Shown: piece after piece, positions 4,774 through 17,895 of the stretch
Position numbering within the stretch: the first letter of the stretch is position 1
Layout of the letters: every line of letters starts with the position of its first letter
Virus record (IMG/VR): IMGVR_UViG_3300044904_000025
Span: 1-25,676 of that record
DNA length: 25,676 bases
Origin: a virus
Strand: one strand, 5' to 3'
Program-made: the position numbers and the translations under genes
Notes under the pieces: generated by a model
The model's input: only the letters and a program-made list of their open reading frames with translations
What the model was told of the DNA's origin: nothing
Databases searched by the model: none

Positions 4774-5102
4774 GGCCCCGCCCCGACCCAACCAAACCGC
4801 TGACCGAGGCGCAGTGGCAGAACGTCGTGGTCCACTACGCCAAGATTTTCTCATGGAGAATCTATCATACACACATCAGCTTTGGCAGCGCGAAGGGCTT
4901 TCCTGACCTCGTGCTCGTGCGGCCTCCGCGGCTCATATTCGTCGAGCTCAAGAGCGACAAGGGCAAGGTGAAGCCGGAGCAACTCGACTGGCTTACTGAA
5001 CTTCACGCCTCCCGCGCTGAGACATACGTATGGCGGCCAATGGACGTTGAAGACGTGGTCGCGATTCTCGCCGACACCCGCACCCAAGGAGGTGCCGCAT
5101 GA
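4770..5102 (+). CDS. VRR-NUC family nuclease
   Basis: A 110-residue protein comprising little more than one VRR-NUC domain, a PD-(D/E)XK-fold nuclease found in FAN1 and, as a stand-alone form, in many phages. Diagnostic residues are all present: Q15 in the first helix, HISFGSAKGFPDLVL (34-48) with catalytic D46, and FVELKSDKGK (57-66) with E59 and K61, then the conserved Q71. Stand-alone members cleave branched DNA such as Holliday junctions. Here it would resolve replication or recombination intermediates before packaging. Starts at GTG overlapping the loader's TGA; its own end overlaps the next small gene by 4 bp. Confidence 0.88.
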   Translation: MRPRPDPTKPLTEAQWQNVVVHYAKIFSWRIYHTHISFGSAKGFPDLVLVRPPRLIFVELKSDKGKVKPEQLDWLTELHASRAETYVWRPMDVEDVVAILADTRTQGGAA

Positions 5103-5212
5103 CTCCCTTCTCCGCGTGGATCGCAACCGGCTGGGGCGAGGTAGCCGTTGCGCTGATGCTCGGGTGTGGCGCGCTGTGGGCGTTGATGACAAGAAAAGCG
5201 AGGCGAGGATGA
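5099..5212 (+). CDS. Small single-span membrane protein (37 aa)
   Basis: Too short for routine gene finders but well supported: a near-perfect AAGGAGGTG ribosome site at 5086-5094, an ATG at 5099 sharing bases with the upstream stop, and a TGA overlapping the next ATG. The 37-residue product is one hydrophobic helix (about residues 4-30, including EVAVALMLGCGALWALM) with a strongly basic TRKARRG end, so a single membrane span with cytoplasmic C-terminus is expected. Function unknown; small inner-membrane phage proteins include superinfection-exclusion factors and holin-like peptides. Confidence 0.6.
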   Translation: MTPFSAWIATGWGEVAVALMLGCGALWALMTRKARRG

Positions 5213-6060
5213 GCAAACCAAGGGTGGAGCTTGATCGCGTCGAACACCTGGCGAGCCTGCCGCCGTTGCGGGACTCAAGCGACGAGAAGATCATGCTCGC
5301 CGCCGATCTCCTCGCCGAAGAGTTCCGCACGTCCGCGGCGGCTGTGCCGCAGGCCTTAGAACTCGCATTCCGCTTGGCCGCCCCACCACCAGCAGGCCCC
5401 GAACTCGAGAATTATCGAAGTGCGTTGAAGCAAGTGAGCACGGCTTATGACTCCTTTGGCAAGAACGCCTTACGCTACATCGACGCCCTGAGAAGCTCGG
5501 GCGACCCACAGCTCGCAGCACACGCAACAGAGTTTCATGACGACCTCAACAACGCGATCCTGGAAGCCAGACCCACACCAGAGGACCGCGGCAAGAGGTT
5601 ACAAACGCTCCTCATCGCAGAGGCCCAGTTCCTAGAGCAGAAACTCCTCGCCCGGCGGGAGAGAGACGAGGCAATCTTCGCTCGTGACACCGAGTTCGAG
5701 CTGCGCAAACAGGCTGTCGAGAAGTGGAACGAGGGTCGCCACGAGCGTGACGAGCTGGCGCGGGAGGTCGAGAGGCTGCGCGAGGTGCTCGAAGCGTGCC
5801 CAGGATGTCAGGAAGGGAATGGGCTTCGTGATCGCGCCGAGAAGGCAGAGCGGGAGATCGAGAGGCTGGCGGAGCTGGTGGGGGCTGTAAAAAGGGTTTG
5901 TCTTTACGTTGCCAACAGAATAGGGCAAACAAAACTCTCAACGGAGGCATTGCGTCAGGCCCTGGCAATCGCCGCCGAGCATGGCGACGCAAACGAATGG
6001 ATCGCGGAGCTTGAACTGCTATTGGCCCTCCGCGCCCTCGATGCAAAGGGGGGTAAATGA
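5209..6060 (+). CDS. Coiled-coil protein of unknown function
   Basis: A 283-residue, highly charged and almost entirely helical protein. Residues about 145-235 are a long coiled coil (ERDEAIFARDTEF, HERDELAREVERLREVLEAC, RAEKAEREIERLAELV) interrupted by a CPGCQEGNG turn whose two cysteines resemble half a zinc hook. The N-terminal 130 residues are also helical, and the end (ALRALDAKGGK) resembles the shared terminus of the next three genes. ATG at 5209 overlaps the upstream TGA. No family recognised. It may have grown by fusion with the same short cassette that follows it three times. Confidence 0.65.
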   Translation: MSKPRVELDRVEHLASLPPLRDSSDEKIMLAADLLAEEFRTSAAAVPQALELAFRLAAPPPAGPELENYRSALKQVSTAYDSFGKNALRYIDALRSSGDPQLAAHATEFHDDLNNAILEARPTPEDRGKRLQTLLIAEAQFLEQKLLARRERDEAIFARDTEFELRKQAVEKWNEGRHERDELAREVERLREVLEACPGCQEGNGLRDRAEKAEREIERLAELVGAVKRVCLYVANRIGQTKLSTEALRQALAIAAEHGDANEWIAELELLLALRALDAKGGK

Positions 6061-9047: not shown

Positions 9048-9382
9048 GGCATGACATGGCGAGGTCTGGACTGGCCGGGCAAGGCCGGGTCTGGCGTGGT
9101 GTGGCAAGGCAGGCGCGGCAGGGTGGGGTACGACACGACAGGGCGGGGCTGGGTCCGGTGCGGTTTGGTATGGCTAGGTTCGGTGCGGCAGGTGTGGCGC
9201 GGTAGGCATGGATGGGTCTGGCATGGCGCGGTTGGGCAGGGAGTGGCATGGCAGGCGAGGCGAGGCCTGGTCAGACACGGTCGGGCGCGGCTGGGCAAGG
9301 CCTGGTATGGCAAGGCAGGCAAGGAATGGAACGATTTGGTGGGGCGAGATTTGGCTCGGCCAGGCATGGAATGATCTGGCAC
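9048..9382 (+). repeat. 68-unit degenerate GGYNN pentamer tract
   Basis: Written as consecutive units, this stretch reads GGCAT GACAT GGCGA and so on without a break for 68 units. Position 1 is always G and position 2 almost always G (otherwise A). Position 3 is C or T in all but a few units; positions 4-5 are free. Sixty-three units are 5 nt long and five are 4 nt long (starting at 9108, 9187, 9201, 9250 and 9314), each GGCA or GGTA; no 6-nt unit occurs. G far exceeds C (30 against 14 in 9061-9120). The last unit ends one base before a promoter -35 box. Frames that stay open across it on either strand are by-products of the periodicity. Confidence 0.9.
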
Positions 9383-9411
9383 TTGACAAACAGAAATGTG
9401 TGCTGTACATT
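9383..9411 (+). promoter_or_regulatory. Sigma70-type promoter
   Basis: A perfect TTGACA at 9383-9388, a 17-bp spacer and TACATT at 9406-9411 (4 of 6 matches to TATAAT) with TG just before it. Transcription would begin near 9418. It is the only good promoter I see in the window and lies ahead of the HNH-terminase-head operon, so it is the best candidate for the late promoter. No UP element: the GGYNN tract directly abuts the -35 box. Confidence 0.75.
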
Positions 9412-9417
9412 GTGTTC

Positions 9418-9466
9418 AAGAGAGCGACAGCTCTCGAAAGACCTCGAGCAATCGAGGTCTTTTTAT
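9418..9466 (+). ncRNA. Predicted two-hairpin mini-transcript / attenuator leader
   Basis: From the predicted start near 9418 to the terminator U-run, the RNA would be only about 48 nt. A first hairpin, GAGAGC/GCTCTC around GACA (9420-9435), sits at the 5' end, and the terminator hairpin follows after two bases. A weaker alternative pairing (9432-9437 with 9452-9457) would disrupt both. Either this is a free small RNA, or it is a leader that must be read through, by antitermination, to express the late genes. No family is recognised. Confidence 0.5.
9438..9464 (+). terminator. Intrinsic terminator immediately after the promoter
   Basis: Ten-base-pair stem AAGACCTCGA/TCGAGGTCTT with a GCAA tetraloop (9448-9451), running directly into a run of five T (9460-9464) and then ATT. 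A textbook Rho-independent terminator, oriented for + strand transcripts and lying only about 25-45 nt downstream of the promoter start site. Confidence 0.85.
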
Positions 9467-9477
9467 TGGAGTAGACA

Positions 9478-9927: not shown

Positions 9928-10389
9928 ATGAGGCCAGGACCGAAACCGACGCCGACGACGCTAAAACTCGTCAGAAACAACCCCGGCAAGCGGAAACTCC
10001 CGGAGAATGAGCCCCGCCTTCCAAGACAACTCCCGACGTGCCCGGAGAGGTTCGACGAAACCCGCCGGCGCGCCTGGTCGGACCTCGCGCAAGAGCTCCT
10101 CGGCATGGGTGTACTCACGGCCGCGGATGGCATCGCCCTTGAGTTGGCGGCCAGCCTCCTCGCACGATACCGAGAGGCTGATGAACACCTGCAGGCCGAG
10201 AAGCAAATCCTCACCTCGAAAGAGGGAGGCCTCTATCAATCGCCGTGGGGTGGGCTCTCCTCCAACCTTGAGAAGAAGCTCTGGAACGCCCTGGCCGCCT
10301 TCGGTATGTCGCCGGCCGACCGCTCGCGCGTCCAAGTGTCTGCGCCCCCGGCTGAGTCCGCCTACGAACAGGCAAGGAAAAAGAAATAG
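9928..10389 (+). CDS. terS: Terminase small subunit, P27 family
   Basis: A 153-residue protein beginning MRPGPKPTPTTLKLVRNNPG then KRKLPENEPRLP, the hallmark N-terminus of P27-type small terminases. A helical body follows (RRRAWSDLAQELLGMGVLTA, then DGIALELAASLLARYREADE), the conserved region before LYQSPWGGL and a C-terminal AAFGMSPADRSRV motif. It recognises the packaging site and directs the large subunit to it. ATG 9928 has a GGGG-type ribosome site about 8 nt upstream. Its TAG overlaps the large-subunit GTG by one base, so the two are co-translated. Confidence 0.93.
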   Translation: MRPGPKPTPTTLKLVRNNPGKRKLPENEPRLPRQLPTCPERFDETRRRAWSDLAQELLGMGVLTAADGIALELAASLLARYREADEHLQAEKQILTSKEGGLYQSPWGGLSSNLEKKLWNALAAFGMSPADRSRVQVSAPPAESAYEQARKKK

Positions 10390-12167
10390 TGACCGCTCTC
10401 AAGGGTTTCTCGGCCTCGCATCCCGCGGGCCGGTGGGAGAGGCGCGTCTTGGCTGGCAAGGAAGTCGTCTCTCACTACGTCCATCTCGCCGTTGAGCGCC
10501 AGCAGTACGACCTGCAGCACGGCGCCGAGCGGGGCCTCAAGTTCGAAAAAGAGAAGGTGGATCGGGTTATCACCTTCTTCCAGGATAACCTGCATCACTG
10601 GAAAGGCGAGTGGGCCGGTCAGATTGTTCACCTTGAAGACTGGCAGCAATGGATGCTCGGCGTTCTCTTCGGCTGGATTGGTGCGGACGGATACCGCCGC
10701 TTCCGTCGGTTGTGGATGGAAGTCGCCCGGAAGAACGGCAAGTCGTTCATCGCCGCCGGCATCGGTCTCTACCTCATGGACTTTGACAATGAGCCGGGCG
10801 CGGAGATTTTCGCAATAGCGACCAAGCGAGAGCAGGTTACGCGGTACATTTGGCGAGACGCCTGCCAAATGGTTGCGGCGTCGCCGGATCTCGCTCGTCG
10901 GATTCACCGCTTCCGCGCTAGCAACACCCTCGTCTGCGAGGAAACCGAAAGCTCGTTCCAGGCGCTCGGTTCGGACGCCTCCACCCTTGACGCGCTGAAC
11001 GTCCACGGCGGCCTACTCGACGAGGTACACGAGCACCCGACCCTGGAGATTCACGAGAAGATTGAAACCGGTATGGGCGCCCGGCGCCAGCCGATGCTCT
11101 GCCGCTTCACCACGGCCGGCGATGAGTCCCCGGGTTCGCCTTACGAACAACTCCACGAGTACGCCGCGAATGTTGTCGAGGGATTCCGTGAGAAGTTTGT
11201 GGACGACCGGGAGTTTGTGTTCCTGGCCTGCCTCGACGCTGACGACGATCCGTTCAATGAGGCGTGCTGGGCGAAGGCCAATCCGAACCTCGGCGTGAGC
11301 GTCAAGCTCGCGTTCCTCCGCGAGCAGGCCGTCAAGGCGAAGAATGAGCCGGCGTTCCTCCCAACCTTCCTCCGCTACCACTGCAATCGTCGCGCCCACG
11401 TCGACGCCGCGCCGATCCCGCTTGACCTGTGGGATGCATGCGAAGACCCGTCGCTACGTGACGACGACCTCGCCGGTAGGGACTGCTATGGCGGCCTTGA
11501 CCTCGCCACTACGACCGATCTTGCGGCACTCGGGCGCGTCTACCCTGAGATCCGCGCGGACGGCAGCGAGGGCATCGTCGTCAAGTGCGACGCATGGTGC
11601 CCGGATGAGGGTATCGACAAGCGCGCTCGGACCGACGGTGCACCCTACGCGGAGTGGGCGTCCCAGCACTGGCTAACGGCCACGGCGGGGAACATCATCG
11701 ACTACCGCTTCATCGAGGACACCCTCGGCGGCCTGGCGGCGAAGGTCGTGTTCCGCGACATCGGGTTCGACAAGGCGAAGGCGGCCGACGTCTGCATCCG
11801 GCTCGCCGACGCCGGACTCCCCCTGACCGAGTGCCCACAAGGTCCGCTCCACATGACGGCGCCCTTCAACCGTCTGCTCGACCTCGTGCGTTCCGGGCGC
11901 CTGCGGCATGACGGCAACCCGTTACTCCGCTGGTGCATTGGCAATCTGCGCGTCAAGGACGCCGCCGGCGGCCTCGTGCGGATCGTCAAGGCCAATCAGC
12001 GGGCGCGGATCGACGGCGCGGTCGGCATCCTGATGGCGCTCGCGCGTCTCATGTTGGCGACGCCGGAGGCCGGGAACTCGTACTCGGACGACTACGACAA
12101 GCCGCTGATTGTCCGGCGCGATGGGGGCGGCAGCTACGGCAAGGATTACAGCGAGGTCACCCCATGA
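10389..12167 (+). CDS. terL: Terminase large subunit (HK97-type)
   Basis: A 592-residue packaging motor and nuclease. The N-terminal ATPase has the variant Walker A VARKNGKS (112-119), typical of this terminase family, and the Walker B GGLLDEVHEH, with D211-E212. The C-terminal RNase H-like nuclease opens with YGGLDLATTTDL, where D371 is the expected first metal ligand; FRDIGFDKAKA and a terminal VGILMAL...Y segment follow in the usual order. Length and motif order are normal for the family. GTG start overlaps the small-subunit stop by one base. Its own stop overlaps the start of a membrane glycosyltransferase (ATGA), where the portal gene would normally be found. Confidence 0.96.
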   Translation: MTALKGFSASHPAGRWERRVLAGKEVVSHYVHLAVERQQYDLQHGAERGLKFEKEKVDRVITFFQDNLHHWKGEWAGQIVHLEDWQQWMLGVLFGWIGADGYRRFRRLWMEVARKNGKSFIAAGIGLYLMDFDNEPGAEIFAIATKREQVTRYIWRDACQMVAASPDLARRIHRFRASNTLVCEETESSFQALGSDASTLDALNVHGGLLDEVHEHPTLEIHEKIETGMGARRQPMLCRFTTAGDESPGSPYEQLHEYAANVVEGFREKFVDDREFVFLACLDADDDPFNEACWAKANPNLGVSVKLAFLREQAVKAKNEPAFLPTFLRYHCNRRAHVDAAPIPLDLWDACEDPSLRDDDLAGRDCYGGLDLATTTDLAALGRVYPEIRADGSEGIVVKCDAWCPDEGIDKRARTDGAPYAEWASQHWLTATAGNIIDYRFIEDTLGGLAAKVVFRDIGFDKAKAADVCIRLADAGLPLTECPQGPLHMTAPFNRLLDLVRSGRLRHDGNPLLRWCIGNLRVKDAAGGLVRIVKANQRARIDGAVGILMALARLMLATPEAGNSYSDDYDKPLIVRRDGGGSYGKDYSEVTP

Positions 12168-13279
12168 CCACCCTCGCCGCGATCCTCGTGCTCGCCGCGG
12201 GCCTCCGGTGGTTCGCCTTCCGCTCCGTCAAGAAGTACTCCCCGGCCGACGAGGCGGTCTACGCCGAGCAGGTGCGTTGGCTGAACACTCCCGGGCGCAA
12301 AGGTTTCCGGGCGTTCGTCGACGTTTACCTCGCCACCCCCCGGGTCCATGACTTCCCGTCGCCGTTGCGGTGGGGTTACCTCTTCCTCGCCGCTGGCTGG
12401 TGCCGTGCCTATCGAGAGTCTGACGAACGCGCCCTGGCGATCTTCTCGTCGTTCTGCGGTCTCGGCGTCGTTGTCATGTCCTGGGTGCTCGCGCGCCAAC
12501 TCGTGGGCGCTACCGCCGCCGCGTGGTGCGCCGCACTCGTTGCATGCTCAGCGCTACAGCTCATTGTCGGCCGCCGCGCACTCTCTGATACCCCTGCGGC
12601 GCTCGCCGCCATCACCTACCTGGCCGCAGCCATTTGGTATGCGCAGGCACCCACTACCTTGACGGCGAGCGCCGTTCTTCTTCTCGGGGCCTTGGCAATC
12701 ACCGTCAAGGAAACTGCCCTGGTTTTCGTGCTGCCGGTGGGCCTTGTGCTCGCCGTGGCTACCCACGGACTGCGGCCGGACATGCTGCTCGCCGTTGTCC
12801 TCGGCCCCGTGCTGTTGTGGATTGCGCTTTCGATGCTGGTCGTTGGGGGTCGCAGGCGCCTGGTGGCACTCATTCGAAACATGGTCGCCCAGAAAAACGG
12901 CCCCTATGTGGCCGCCTACCAGTCCGGTGTCTGGTCGCGATCCATCGTTGATCTCGCCCTGGTGGTACCGCTGACGCTCGTTGCGGCCGTGGCCGGCGCG
13001 ACGCTGCTACTCCAACGGGGGAGTCTGGCCGTTCCGACGGCCCTGGTGGCGGCGGTTTTGCTCGCCGGCCTCGCGCCGCTCAAGAACGTCCGGATGCAAC
13101 TCGTGGCGGAGGTGCTCGTCTGTGTGGCGGCCGGTGTGGCGCTAGCGGAACTCGGCATCTTTTCCGGTCTGTTGGTCTGCGCGTCGGGCGTATGGATGGG
13201 TCATAAGATGGTCAATGTATACGATCCAGTGACGCTTAATCTCGTGCGGGCGCTGAATATGGGCGGGGGGTTGCGATGA
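12164..13279 (+). CDS. Membrane GT-C glycosyltransferase (ArnT/PMT-like)
   Basis: A 371-residue integral membrane protein with about eight to ten spans. The pattern is that of GT-C enzymes of the ArnT/PMT type, which move a sugar from a polyprenyl phosphate carrier onto an acceptor outside the cytoplasmic membrane. After the first span come D29-E30 in SPADEAVYAEQVRWL (the catalytic first-loop acid with the family's DE-YA pattern), PSPLRWGYLFLAA (65-77, the PPL-like motif), GRRALSDTPAAL (136-147, resembling the AR...D motif) and AITVKETALVFVLP (178-191). It lacks the large C-terminal domain of longer relatives. Codon use matches the neighbours. It is coupled by ATGA overlaps to both large terminase and portal, an unusual position that implies late expression. 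Donor and acceptor cannot be deduced. Confidence 0.8.
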   Translation: MTTLAAILVLAAGLRWFAFRSVKKYSPADEAVYAEQVRWLNTPGRKGFRAFVDVYLATPRVHDFPSPLRWGYLFLAAGWCRAYRESDERALAIFSSFCGLGVVVMSWVLARQLVGATAAAWCAALVACSALQLIVGRRALSDTPAALAAITYLAAAIWYAQAPTTLTASAVLLLGALAITVKETALVFVLPVGLVLAVATHGLRPDMLLAVVLGPVLLWIALSMLVVGGRRRLVALIRNMVAQKNGPYVAAYQSGVWSRSIVDLALVVPLTLVAAVAGATLLLQRGSLAVPTALVAAVLLAGLAPLKNVRMQLVAEVLVCVAAGVALAELGIFSGLLVCASGVWMGHKMVNVYDPVTLNLVRALNMGGGLR

Positions 13280-14901
13280 AGCTACGCATCGAACGCGAAC
13301 CCTTAATCGAACTCGGGCTCGCAGAGGTTGCCAGAAACCTACCCAGGAATCAGCGCGGGGGCACGTTTGACGGCGGCACGCTCGCCGACCCCACGCCGGA
13401 CCTGATTCGTTCCTTCCACGGTCTACCGTCCACCTCAGGAGTCCCGGTCAATGCCGACACGGCGATGACCATCTCGACCGTCCACGCCTGCGTTCGGATT
13501 CTCTCGGGTCTGGGCGCGTCGCTTCCGCTCATGGTCTACCAGGCGACCGACAAGGGTCCTCGGCTGGCGAAGGAGCATCGACTCTACTCGCTGCTGCACG
13601 ACGCGCCGAACCCGCAACAGTCTTCGTTCCTCTGGCGTGAGGCCGAGTGGACGAATGAACTGCTGACGGGAAATTCCTACACGCAAATCGAGTACGACGG
13701 CGCCGGTCGCGTCAAGGGTCTCTGGCCGATTCAGGCGAGTCGCGTCATGCCGCAGCGAGTCATGGACATCCATTCACCATCGTTCGGCGAGATCGTCTAC
13801 ATCATTGACAACAACACTCGGGGCACCGCGCGTCTCCTGGCTAAGCAAATGCTCCATATCCCCGGTATGGGCTTCGACGGGGTGATGGGCAAGTCGAGGA
13901 TTACCTACTTCCGCGAGGGGCTCGGCCTGGCGCTGGCAACCGAGCGGCATGGTTCGTCGTTCTTCGGTGCCGGCGGGATGCCACCGGTCGCGCTCACCCA
14001 TCCCGGGAAGGGCAACCACGAGGCGGCGAAGAAGATCAAGAGCGAATGGCACGAGGGCCGCGACAGCCTCGATAACGTGGTCGTGCTCTTCGATGGGATG
14101 AAGGCCGAGCCGATCTCGATCAACCATGTCGACCTGCAGTACCTCGAAACCCGGACATTCCAGGTTGAGGAGGTCTGCCGCATGTTCCTCGTGCCGACGT
14201 GGATGGTCGCGGCCGCGGCGCACGCATCGAATTTCGGGACCGGGATCGAACAGCAGTTTATTGCGTTCCTGACGATCTCCCTCGTGCCTGAATTGCGCCG
14301 TCGCGAGCAGGCAATGAACATGCAATTGTTCAGTTCGACGGACCAGGCGGCCGGTTTCTACGTCGAGCACGTCGTCGAGGGCATCCTGCGCGCCGATTCG
14401 GCGGCCCGCGCGATCTTCTACAAGATGATGCGCGAGATGGGGGCGTTCTCGGTGGACGACGTTCTCCGCAAAGAGAACCTCCCGACCATCGGCGGGGAGG
14501 CCGGAAGCGAGCGAATTAGGCCCGCGAACATGGTCCCGATCGGTACGCCAGCACCCGCCGCTCCGGCTCCGTTCCCTGCCGGACGTAGTGAGGATCTACC
14601 AGCCATCGACCGGGCATCGTTCAAACCGCTGATTCAGGACGCTTTTGAGCGCTCGATCGGCAAGGCGAAGCGGGACTGGGTCGCCGCGGACAAGCGGGGC
14701 GACGAAGCGCGGCAGGCGTGGGCTGAGGACTTCCAGCGCAACGCTCGCCGCCAACTTGCTCTCGTCGGTGAGGCGATGGGCGAGAGCAAGGCGGTCGTCA
14801 CGTGGGTGACGCTGCTCCCGAAACCGAATGGGGAACTCCCTGATGTCTGGGACGTCTCTGCATTGGCCGCGACCGCGGCCGAAAAGTGCATCGGAGGCTG
14901 A
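13276..14901 (+). CDS. Portal protein, HK97 family
   Basis: A 541-residue portal, the dodecameric ring through which DNA enters the head. Typical blocks are present in order: MTISTVHACVRILSGLGASL then PLMVYQ near residue 65, the LYSLLHDAPNPQQSSFLWR region, NELLTGNSYTQIEYD, LLAKQMLHIPGMGFDG, YFREGLGLALATERHGSSFF and FLVPTWMVAAAAHASNFG. The last 130 residues are a Pro/Ala-rich linker plus a charged helical tail, longer than in minimal relatives. Starts at ATG overlapping the glycosyltransferase TGA. The protease gene follows at once. Identification is firm. Confidence 0.95.
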   Translation: MKLRIEREPLIELGLAEVARNLPRNQRGGTFDGGTLADPTPDLIRSFHGLPSTSGVPVNADTAMTISTVHACVRILSGLGASLPLMVYQATDKGPRLAKEHRLYSLLHDAPNPQQSSFLWREAEWTNELLTGNSYTQIEYDGAGRVKGLWPIQASRVMPQRVMDIHSPSFGEIVYIIDNNTRGTARLLAKQMLHIPGMGFDGVMGKSRITYFREGLGLALATERHGSSFFGAGGMPPVALTHPGKGNHEAAKKIKSEWHEGRDSLDNVVVLFDGMKAEPISINHVDLQYLETRTFQVEEVCRMFLVPTWMVAAAAHASNFGTGIEQQFIAFLTISLVPELRRREQAMNMQLFSSTDQAAGFYVEHVVEGILRADSAARAIFYKMMREMGAFSVDDVLRKENLPTIGGEAGSERIRPANMVPIGTPAPAAPAPFPAGRSEDLPAIDRASFKPLIQDAFERSIGKAKRDWVAADKRGDEARQAWAEDFQRNARRQLALVGEAMGESKAVVTWVTLLPKPNGELPDVWDVSALAATAAEKCIGG

Positions 14902-16957: not shown

Positions 16958-17164
16958 ATGAAGGTCAAGATCACGGAAGGCTGCATCGTTCACGGTAAGC
17001 CGGTCAACGTCGGCGAGACGGTTGACGTGGAGCGCATGGACGCGTTGGGGCTGGTGTCTGGGCATCGTGGCTACATCGTTCCGGATGCGCCACAGCAGAC
17101 CCACGACGAGCGCGCTGACGCGGCCACGGCAGAGGCCGAGGCCAGAATGAAGCGGCGCGCGTGA
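16958..17164 (+). CDS. Small head-region protein of unknown function
   Basis: A 68-residue protein; ATG 16958 follows TTTGGAGGA at ideal distance, so longer frames reaching into the hairpin are not used. Residues 1-45 are strand-rich (MKVKITEGCIVHGKPVNVGE, then DVERMDALGLVSGHRGYIV), a pattern I associate with small phage proteins encoded near capsid or tail genes. The C-terminus is a charged helix (DERADAATAEAEARMKRRA). It might be a capsid accessory or a small chaperone; this is unproven. Its stop overlaps the glycosyltransferase GTG by 4 bp. Confidence 0.7.
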   Translation: MKVKITEGCIVHGKPVNVGETVDVERMDALGLVSGHRGYIVPDAPQQTHDERADAATAEAEARMKRRA

Positions 17165-17895
17165 AACAAGCCAGCAAGACTCCGGCCGGCATCGAAAAGG
17201 TGCTCTTCGCCACGCCCGCGCTCGACGGCAAGGTAAACGTCCAGTACATGGTCTCGATGATGCAGACCGTGTCGATGATGGAGCGCACGGGCGTCGGGTA
17301 CGACCTGCTCGGGCTGTCCGGCCAGAGCCTGCTCCCGATGGGGCGCAACTTCATGGTCGCGGCGTTCCTCTCGCGGCCGGAGTTCTCGCACTTGTTTTTC
17401 ATCGACGCCGACATGGAGTGGAAGGCCGAGGACGCGATGCGGCTGATTCTTGACGACCACGACGTCGCGATGGCGGTGGGCCGGAAGAAGGTCGAGGGTG
17501 AGCCGCAGTACGGCGTCGGGTTCCTCAGCGAACAATCGCCGGTCTGCCAGCACTGCGGCTGCATCGAGGTCGCCTACGGGGGTGCGTGTTTTCTACTGAT
17601 ATCGCGCAAGGCAATCCTACGGATGGTGGCGAAGTACCCCGAGCTGAGTTACGAGAGCGATACCCCGTTCGATCCGATTTGCGGCCTGTTCAACCCGATT
17701 ATGGACGCCAAGGATAAGGCGTACTGGTCGGAGGACATCAGCTTTTGCCTGCGCTGGCGCGCAATGGGCGAGAAGGTGTGGCTCGATCCCCGCATCAACC
17801 TGAACCACTGGGGCGCGACCGTTTGGCGCGGCGACACCATGAGTCTATTCGGTACCGCCGAGGAAGCGAAGGCGGCGAAGGAGGCGGTCGGATGA
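17161..17895 (+). CDS. GT-A fold glycosyltransferase
   Basis: A 244-residue soluble protein matching a family of phage-encoded GT-A glycosyltransferases that use nucleotide sugars. Landmarks: KVLFATPALDG at the N-terminus, SLLPMGRNFMVAAFL (57-70), HLFFIDADMEW with the metal-binding D82-A-D84, VAYGGACFLLISRKAIL (137-152), FDPICGLFN, then YWSEDISFCLRWRAMGEKVW with probable catalytic E191-D192, and LNHWG with H216. A C-x2-C-x-C cluster (129-134) before the acceptor region is an oddity. No membrane segment. GTG start and ATGA end couple it to head genes on both sides, so it is expressed late in the same transcript. Target could be virion protein, phage DNA or a cell polymer; I cannot choose from sequence. 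Confidence 0.85.
   Translation: MKQASKTPAGIEKVLFATPALDGKVNVQYMVSMMQTVSMMERTGVGYDLLGLSGQSLLPMGRNFMVAAFLSRPEFSHLFFIDADMEWKAEDAMRLILDDHDVAMAVGRKKVEGEPQYGVGFLSEQSPVCQHCGCIEVAYGGACFLLISRKAILRMVAKYPELSYESDTPFDPICGLFNPIMDAKDKAYWSEDISFCLRWRAMGEKVWLDPRINLNHWGATVWRGDTMSLFGTAEEAKAAKEAVG

Follow-up and report, generated by a model that had tools for sequence, protein, structure and literature searches.

Between the large terminase (terL) and portal genes of an uncultured HK97-type phage lies a gene for a polytopic membrane protein that looks like a glycosyltransferase. The question raised by this locus is what such a protein is, and why it is encoded in the middle of a head operon. The window, meaning the whole stretch of DNA that was analysed, is the IMG/VR virus record IMGVR_UViG_3300044904_000025 of 25,676 bases; it is a fragment, and donor enzymes and an integrase could sit beyond its ends. 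The gene order is HNH gene, terS, terL, the gene in question, portal, S78 protease, major capsid protein, and head-tail and tail genes up to the tape measure protein (Table 1). Elsewhere in the window, the early region carries an MT-A70 family DNA methyltransferase gene (1246-2394; PF05063, E 2.9e-23). Overlapping Trp/Gly/Arg-rich ORFs 5' of the HNH gene (9051-9474) are of low complexity and resemble repeated DNA more than genes. A GT-A-like glycosyltransferase gene (17161-17895; phrog_1574, E 3.6e-26) is located 3' of the capsid gene and is missing from the fetched relatives. Its homologue in phage MW202691 (L172) is found between the coat protein and a tail accessory factor, and an AlphaFold2 model of the GT-A-like protein made without an alignment was unusable.

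Table 1. Features of the terL-portal junction in the window and of junction genes in other phages (positions without a locus prefix refer to the window).
Feature	Location	Strand	Basis or remark
terL, large terminase	10389..12167	+	Pfam TerL_ATPase 3.6e-23, TerL_nuclease 4.6e-40
GT39/PMT_2-like GT-C glycosyltransferase gene, predicted, 371 aa	12164..13279	+	Intact ORF, weak Pfam/NCBIfam matches, profile versus decoys, codon usage
DEAVYA, residues 29-34, first-loop acidic pair	12248..12265	+	Aligned with family DEayya motif
GRRALSDT, residues 136-143	12569..12592	+	Aligned with family srfalpds motif; second conserved Asp
Portal	13276..14901	+	Pfam Phage_portal 2.4e-83
MptE-like genes, in the junction or directly 3' of terL	L088:7108-7650, L070:4898-5494, L074:206-838		PF01973 in the two scanned
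Abi_2 gene, terL-portal junction, Evtepia phage NatCom_42594	L160:4666-5601	opposite	
Phd/Doc toxin-antitoxin pair, terL-portal junction, Streptococcus phage Javan599	L161:4605-5245		

The ORF runs uninterrupted for 371 codons from an ATG start to a TGA stop. A sequence-only reading of this DNA had described 4-bp coupling to both structural neighbours, and an ATGA is indeed shared with terL at 12164-12167 and another with the portal gene at 13276-13279. A GAGG near the end of terL, directly 5' of the GT-C start, may serve this gene, and its own last codons (MGGGLR) form a G-rich stretch directly 5' of the portal start. A scan with the sigma-70 consensus, which may not fit the host, revealed no promoter-like site between terL and portal. 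By that consensus and with overlaps on both sides, the gene does not show the promoter and terminator of its own that mark a moron. Another property of morons is seen, namely that the extra gene is missing at the same site in related phages: terL and portal overlap directly in four lineages. The gene has the same codon usage as the remainder of the phage (z -0.1), which points to neither decay nor recent import, and a decaying insert was rejected on this ground.

The product is very likely a GT-C glycosyltransferase, and by sequence comparison it probably represents a remote GT39/PMT_2 type. Three weak library matches agree with each other: PF02366 (E 4e-4; 20.4 bits versus a cut-off of 22.7), PF13231 (E 0.004; 17.7 bits versus 26.1), and the cell-surface glycopolymer family NF046093 (E 2e-4). 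None of the Pfam matches reaches its gathering cut-off. When 400 Chloroflexota genomes were searched with the protein, six matches were obtained at E <=1e-3; all four that were scanned are PMT_2 positive, and the remaining two are near-copies of one of these. Chloroflexota PMT_2/GT39-like proteins (PF13231, PF02366; L102, L104, L105) align to residues 4-333 of the phage protein and have the DEAVYA, R..D, and KETA motifs in common with it. However, identity is about 26%, and the phage protein is shorter (371 versus ~540 aa), lacks their C-terminal soluble part, and stays under the Pfam cut-offs.

This resemblance was measured with a profile of 31 PMT_2-selected host loci, among them a few neighbouring polytopic ORFs, against 725 decoys, consisting of 701 shuffled or reversed versions of the phage protein and 24 MFS transporters. 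On the first profile, which held two genes picked out by the phage protein itself (L111 = L103, L112 = L105), the protein scored 40.0 bits versus a decoy maximum of 3.9. On the clean profile without these two genes, it scored 23.8 bits versus 5.8 for the best decoy. The latter is the figure to use, lower than 40.0 but clearly apart from the decoys. The earlier description of a polytopic membrane GT-C between terL and portal is thus probably right, given the intact ORF and a remote GT39/PMT_2 resemblance above decoys. Hydropathy indicates about nine hydrophobic segments of 19 residues, where the GT-C fold has about 11 or more helices.

The conserved residues are consistent with this assignment. 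The first outer loop of GT-C enzymes carries one or more acidic residues, and D29-E30 align with the family DE; R137 and D142 (GRRALSD) and K182-E183 also fall on family positions, D142 being aligned with a conserved Asp. Both motifs named at first sight, DEAVYA in the first loop and PSPL, are present, the latter within HDFPSPL starting at residue 62. In the M. tuberculosis PMT, D74, D176, R441, and Y444 are essential (PMC12331936). By analogy with D74 of that enzyme, the DEAVYA pair is expected to occupy the active-site position, and the two PMT acidic positions probably have counterparts in the phage protein.

Capsid-protein searches yielded more than 80 relatives of the phage in IMG/VR and another ten in bacterial genomes; the best two of these ten are in Chloroflexi MAGs. 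Part of the group is temperate, since some relatives are embedded in bacterial contigs at least 100 kb long, one of them an isolate genome. Sixteen published phages sharing the terL family were added as a second sample. The proposed survey of terL-portal slots for the same gene came back empty: no GT-C gene occupies the junction in the 22 relatives with both genes found or in any of the sixteen published phages, and the only ORFs with at least five hydrophobic segments in the fetched relatives are tape measure proteins. The sequence-only reading had named absence from relatives combined with decay as evidence against itself. The absence extends to all relatives sampled, but the codon usage speaks against decay.

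What occupies the junction instead is varied. In six loci of four lineages (L003, L008, L009/L011/L017, L036), nothing separates terL from portal and the two genes share an ATGA, which looks like the empty site. About a dozen other relatives encode a protein there that is 50-100 aa long and has one or two hydrophobic segments; several of these proteins match phrog_502. This phrog_502/DUF1056-like small membrane protein recurs in the junction (L006, L039, L083, L089, L040, L020, L156 (SfII), L157 (AS1)), ranging from Shigella phage SfII to prophages in Chloroflexi MAGs. It shares the site and the membrane location with the GT-C protein but has no similarity to it. The MptE-like products of L070, L088, and L074 are possibly sugar-linked enzymes encoded in the same junction, but they are soluble, belong to a different family, and are below the Pfam cut-off; a weak match to the sialyltransferase phrog_4603 was observed for them in PHROGs. 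The junction ORF of L038 and L054 reads like an HTH protein. In L014, a degraded transposase-like ORF lies beside a small membrane protein ORF between terL and portal (5036-5563, minus strand).

Among the sixteen published phages, the junction has no annotated gene in seven and a small protein in six (SfII, AS1, K252, Eviarto, U7, and Lilizi), which is a membrane protein in SfII, AS1, K252, and U7. An Abi_2 gene and a Phd/Doc pair are found there in two others (Table 1), and in a Rhizobium phage the capsid gene is directly 3' of terL. The terL-portal junction is therefore a recurrent cargo site. The premise of terL and portal as normal neighbours holds only in part: direct overlap occurs in four lineages, but the junction often holds an accessory gene.

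The GT-C gene itself is known from one copy on one fragment, and no other phage carrier was found by exact peptide patterns or BLAST, methods that could miss remote phage GT-C genes. In INPHARED, tblastn with the protein reached only 11% coverage, in an HNH gene, and two host GT39 proteins gave no match. Searches of plasmids, the PDB, and 398 Pseudomonadota genomes with the GT-C protein were likewise negative. Pattern scans of IMG/VR and GTDB with its peptides, which need near-exact peptides and could let remote relatives escape, found nothing; nor did scans of IMG/VR with the GT39 alignments A2 and A3. PF13231 was absent from 38 relative virus records.

How would such a protein serve the phage? 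We propose that it is a small glycosyltransferase of the inner membrane, of the GT39/PMT_2-like GT-C type. Judging from this family, it would take a sugar from a polyprenyl-phosphate donor. The host would provide the donor, as the fragment showed no recognisable donor-making enzyme or flippase. The sugar would be attached at the outer membrane face, facing away from the cytoplasm, most likely to a host surface glycan. A Chloroflexota host, guessed from the capsid relatives, would make LPS an unlikely target. As accessory cargo whose start and stop codons overlap those of its neighbours, the gene should be expressed together with the head genes during lytic growth, a timing read from gene order. 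The likeliest benefit would be that the receptor on the dying cell is changed or masked, so that progeny are not wasted there or competitors are shut out. For this full chain of a late-made, glycan-modifying cargo gene that masks receptors, we infer activity, donor, acceptor, timing, and benefit, and we hold it tentatively, at somewhat less than an even chance.

A different use of the same enzyme would be lysogenic conversion, in which the gene is also expressed from the prophage and brings about superinfection exclusion or an altered lysogen surface, as do the Gtr proteins of P22 and SfII. This is the usual mode of known phage surface glycosyltransferases (PMC10883804, PMC2909390) and would suit the temperate part of the relatives. 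The tight overlaps with terL and portal, with no promoter-like site 5' of the gene, and the location of the SfII gtr cluster outside the head operon argue against it, and we regard it as unlikely.

Less probable still is that there is no working enzyme. The protein would then be a degenerate GT-C, another polytopic protein with a phrog_502-like membrane role, or an inhibitor of host glycan assembly. At just 371 aa the protein is small, the Arg/Tyr active-site pair of PMT has no clear counterpart in the profile alignment, and a small membrane protein fills the junction in many relatives as well as in SfII, AS1, K252, and U7. However, both conserved acidic motifs are retained, and the small junction proteins do not resemble the GT-C protein.

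The acceptor could also be an exported protein or a virion component, modified as in protein O-mannosylation and perhaps with the help of the GT-A-like gene 3' of the capsid gene; we consider this distinctly unlikely. PMT-type enzymes do modify proteins (PMC12331936), and it has been suggested that mycobacteriophage capsids are glycosylated (PMC11256854). The window holds this second glycosyltransferase-like gene, whose homologue in another phage likewise follows a coat gene. On the other hand, GT-C enzymes act outside the cytoplasmic membrane while heads and tails are assembled inside, and synthesis of a lipid-linked donor by the GT-A-like gene is only putative. The least probable alternative, a match produced by the hydrophobic composition of some other membrane protein such as a transporter, draws on the missed Pfam cut-offs, a composition bias of 45 bits beside the modest clean-profile score, and a poor single-sequence AlphaFold2 model (pLDDT 49.5), but composition-matched decoys reached at most 5.8 bits and real MFS transporters at most 4.3 on the clean profile, the three library models are concordant, and a score of -17.7 on an MFS profile rejects an MFS identity.

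If receptor masking by a late-made glycosyltransferase applied more widely, the terL-portal junction of HK97-type phages would be a site for envelope- and glycan-modifying genes timed to virion assembly, altering the receptor only near progeny release. We consider this general form doubtful. If true, it would be the lytic-phase equivalent of serotype conversion, and the enzyme used here would be a GT39-like one, for which the searches turned up no relative in other phages. The surface glycosyltransferases of phages are mostly known from prophages, where they protect the lysogen; one in the head operon would instead alter the surface in the lytic phase, a timing that is directly testable. Unrelated HK97-type phages repeatedly carry cargo at this junction (small membrane protein, MptE-like, Abi, Doc, HTH, IS, and GT-C), which makes it a concrete place to look for new accessory genes.

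Several known systems share parts of this arrangement. Blocking of the receptor during infection is seen with Llp of T5 (PMC9122224). The anti-Tab gene of Pseudomonas phage JBD26 is an overlapping cargo gene of the late operon for which assembly timing was tested (PMC10884400). As here, it overlaps a terminase gene. Unlike the GT-C gene, it is located between terS and terL and encodes a small soluble counter-defence protein, not an enzyme. GtrABC of P22 is expressed from the prophage and changes a surface sugar, which blocks adsorption (PMC10883804).

The closest comparison is with the serotype-converting Shigella phage SfII, whose terL is homologous, whose head genes follow the same order, and whose junction encodes a phrog_502 protein. 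Its GtrII is, like the GT-C protein, phage-borne, polytopic, and presumed to act on the host surface. However, its gtrA-gtrB-gtrII cluster is encoded on the opposite strand, next to the integrase, in agreement with the initial claim that serotype-conversion glycosyltransferases typically sit outside the head operon, whereas here a single gene lies within it. Neither a gtrA flippase nor a gtrB donor synthase was recognised among the ORFs scanned in this fragment, several short ORFs lying outside the Pfam scan. GtrII, the sole Gtr type compared, belongs to PF14264 and does not align to the GT-C protein, so a GtrII homologue was rejected. With no GtrII similarity and a site in the head operon, the GT-C gene resembles the Gtr systems in presumed purpose rather than in family or placement.
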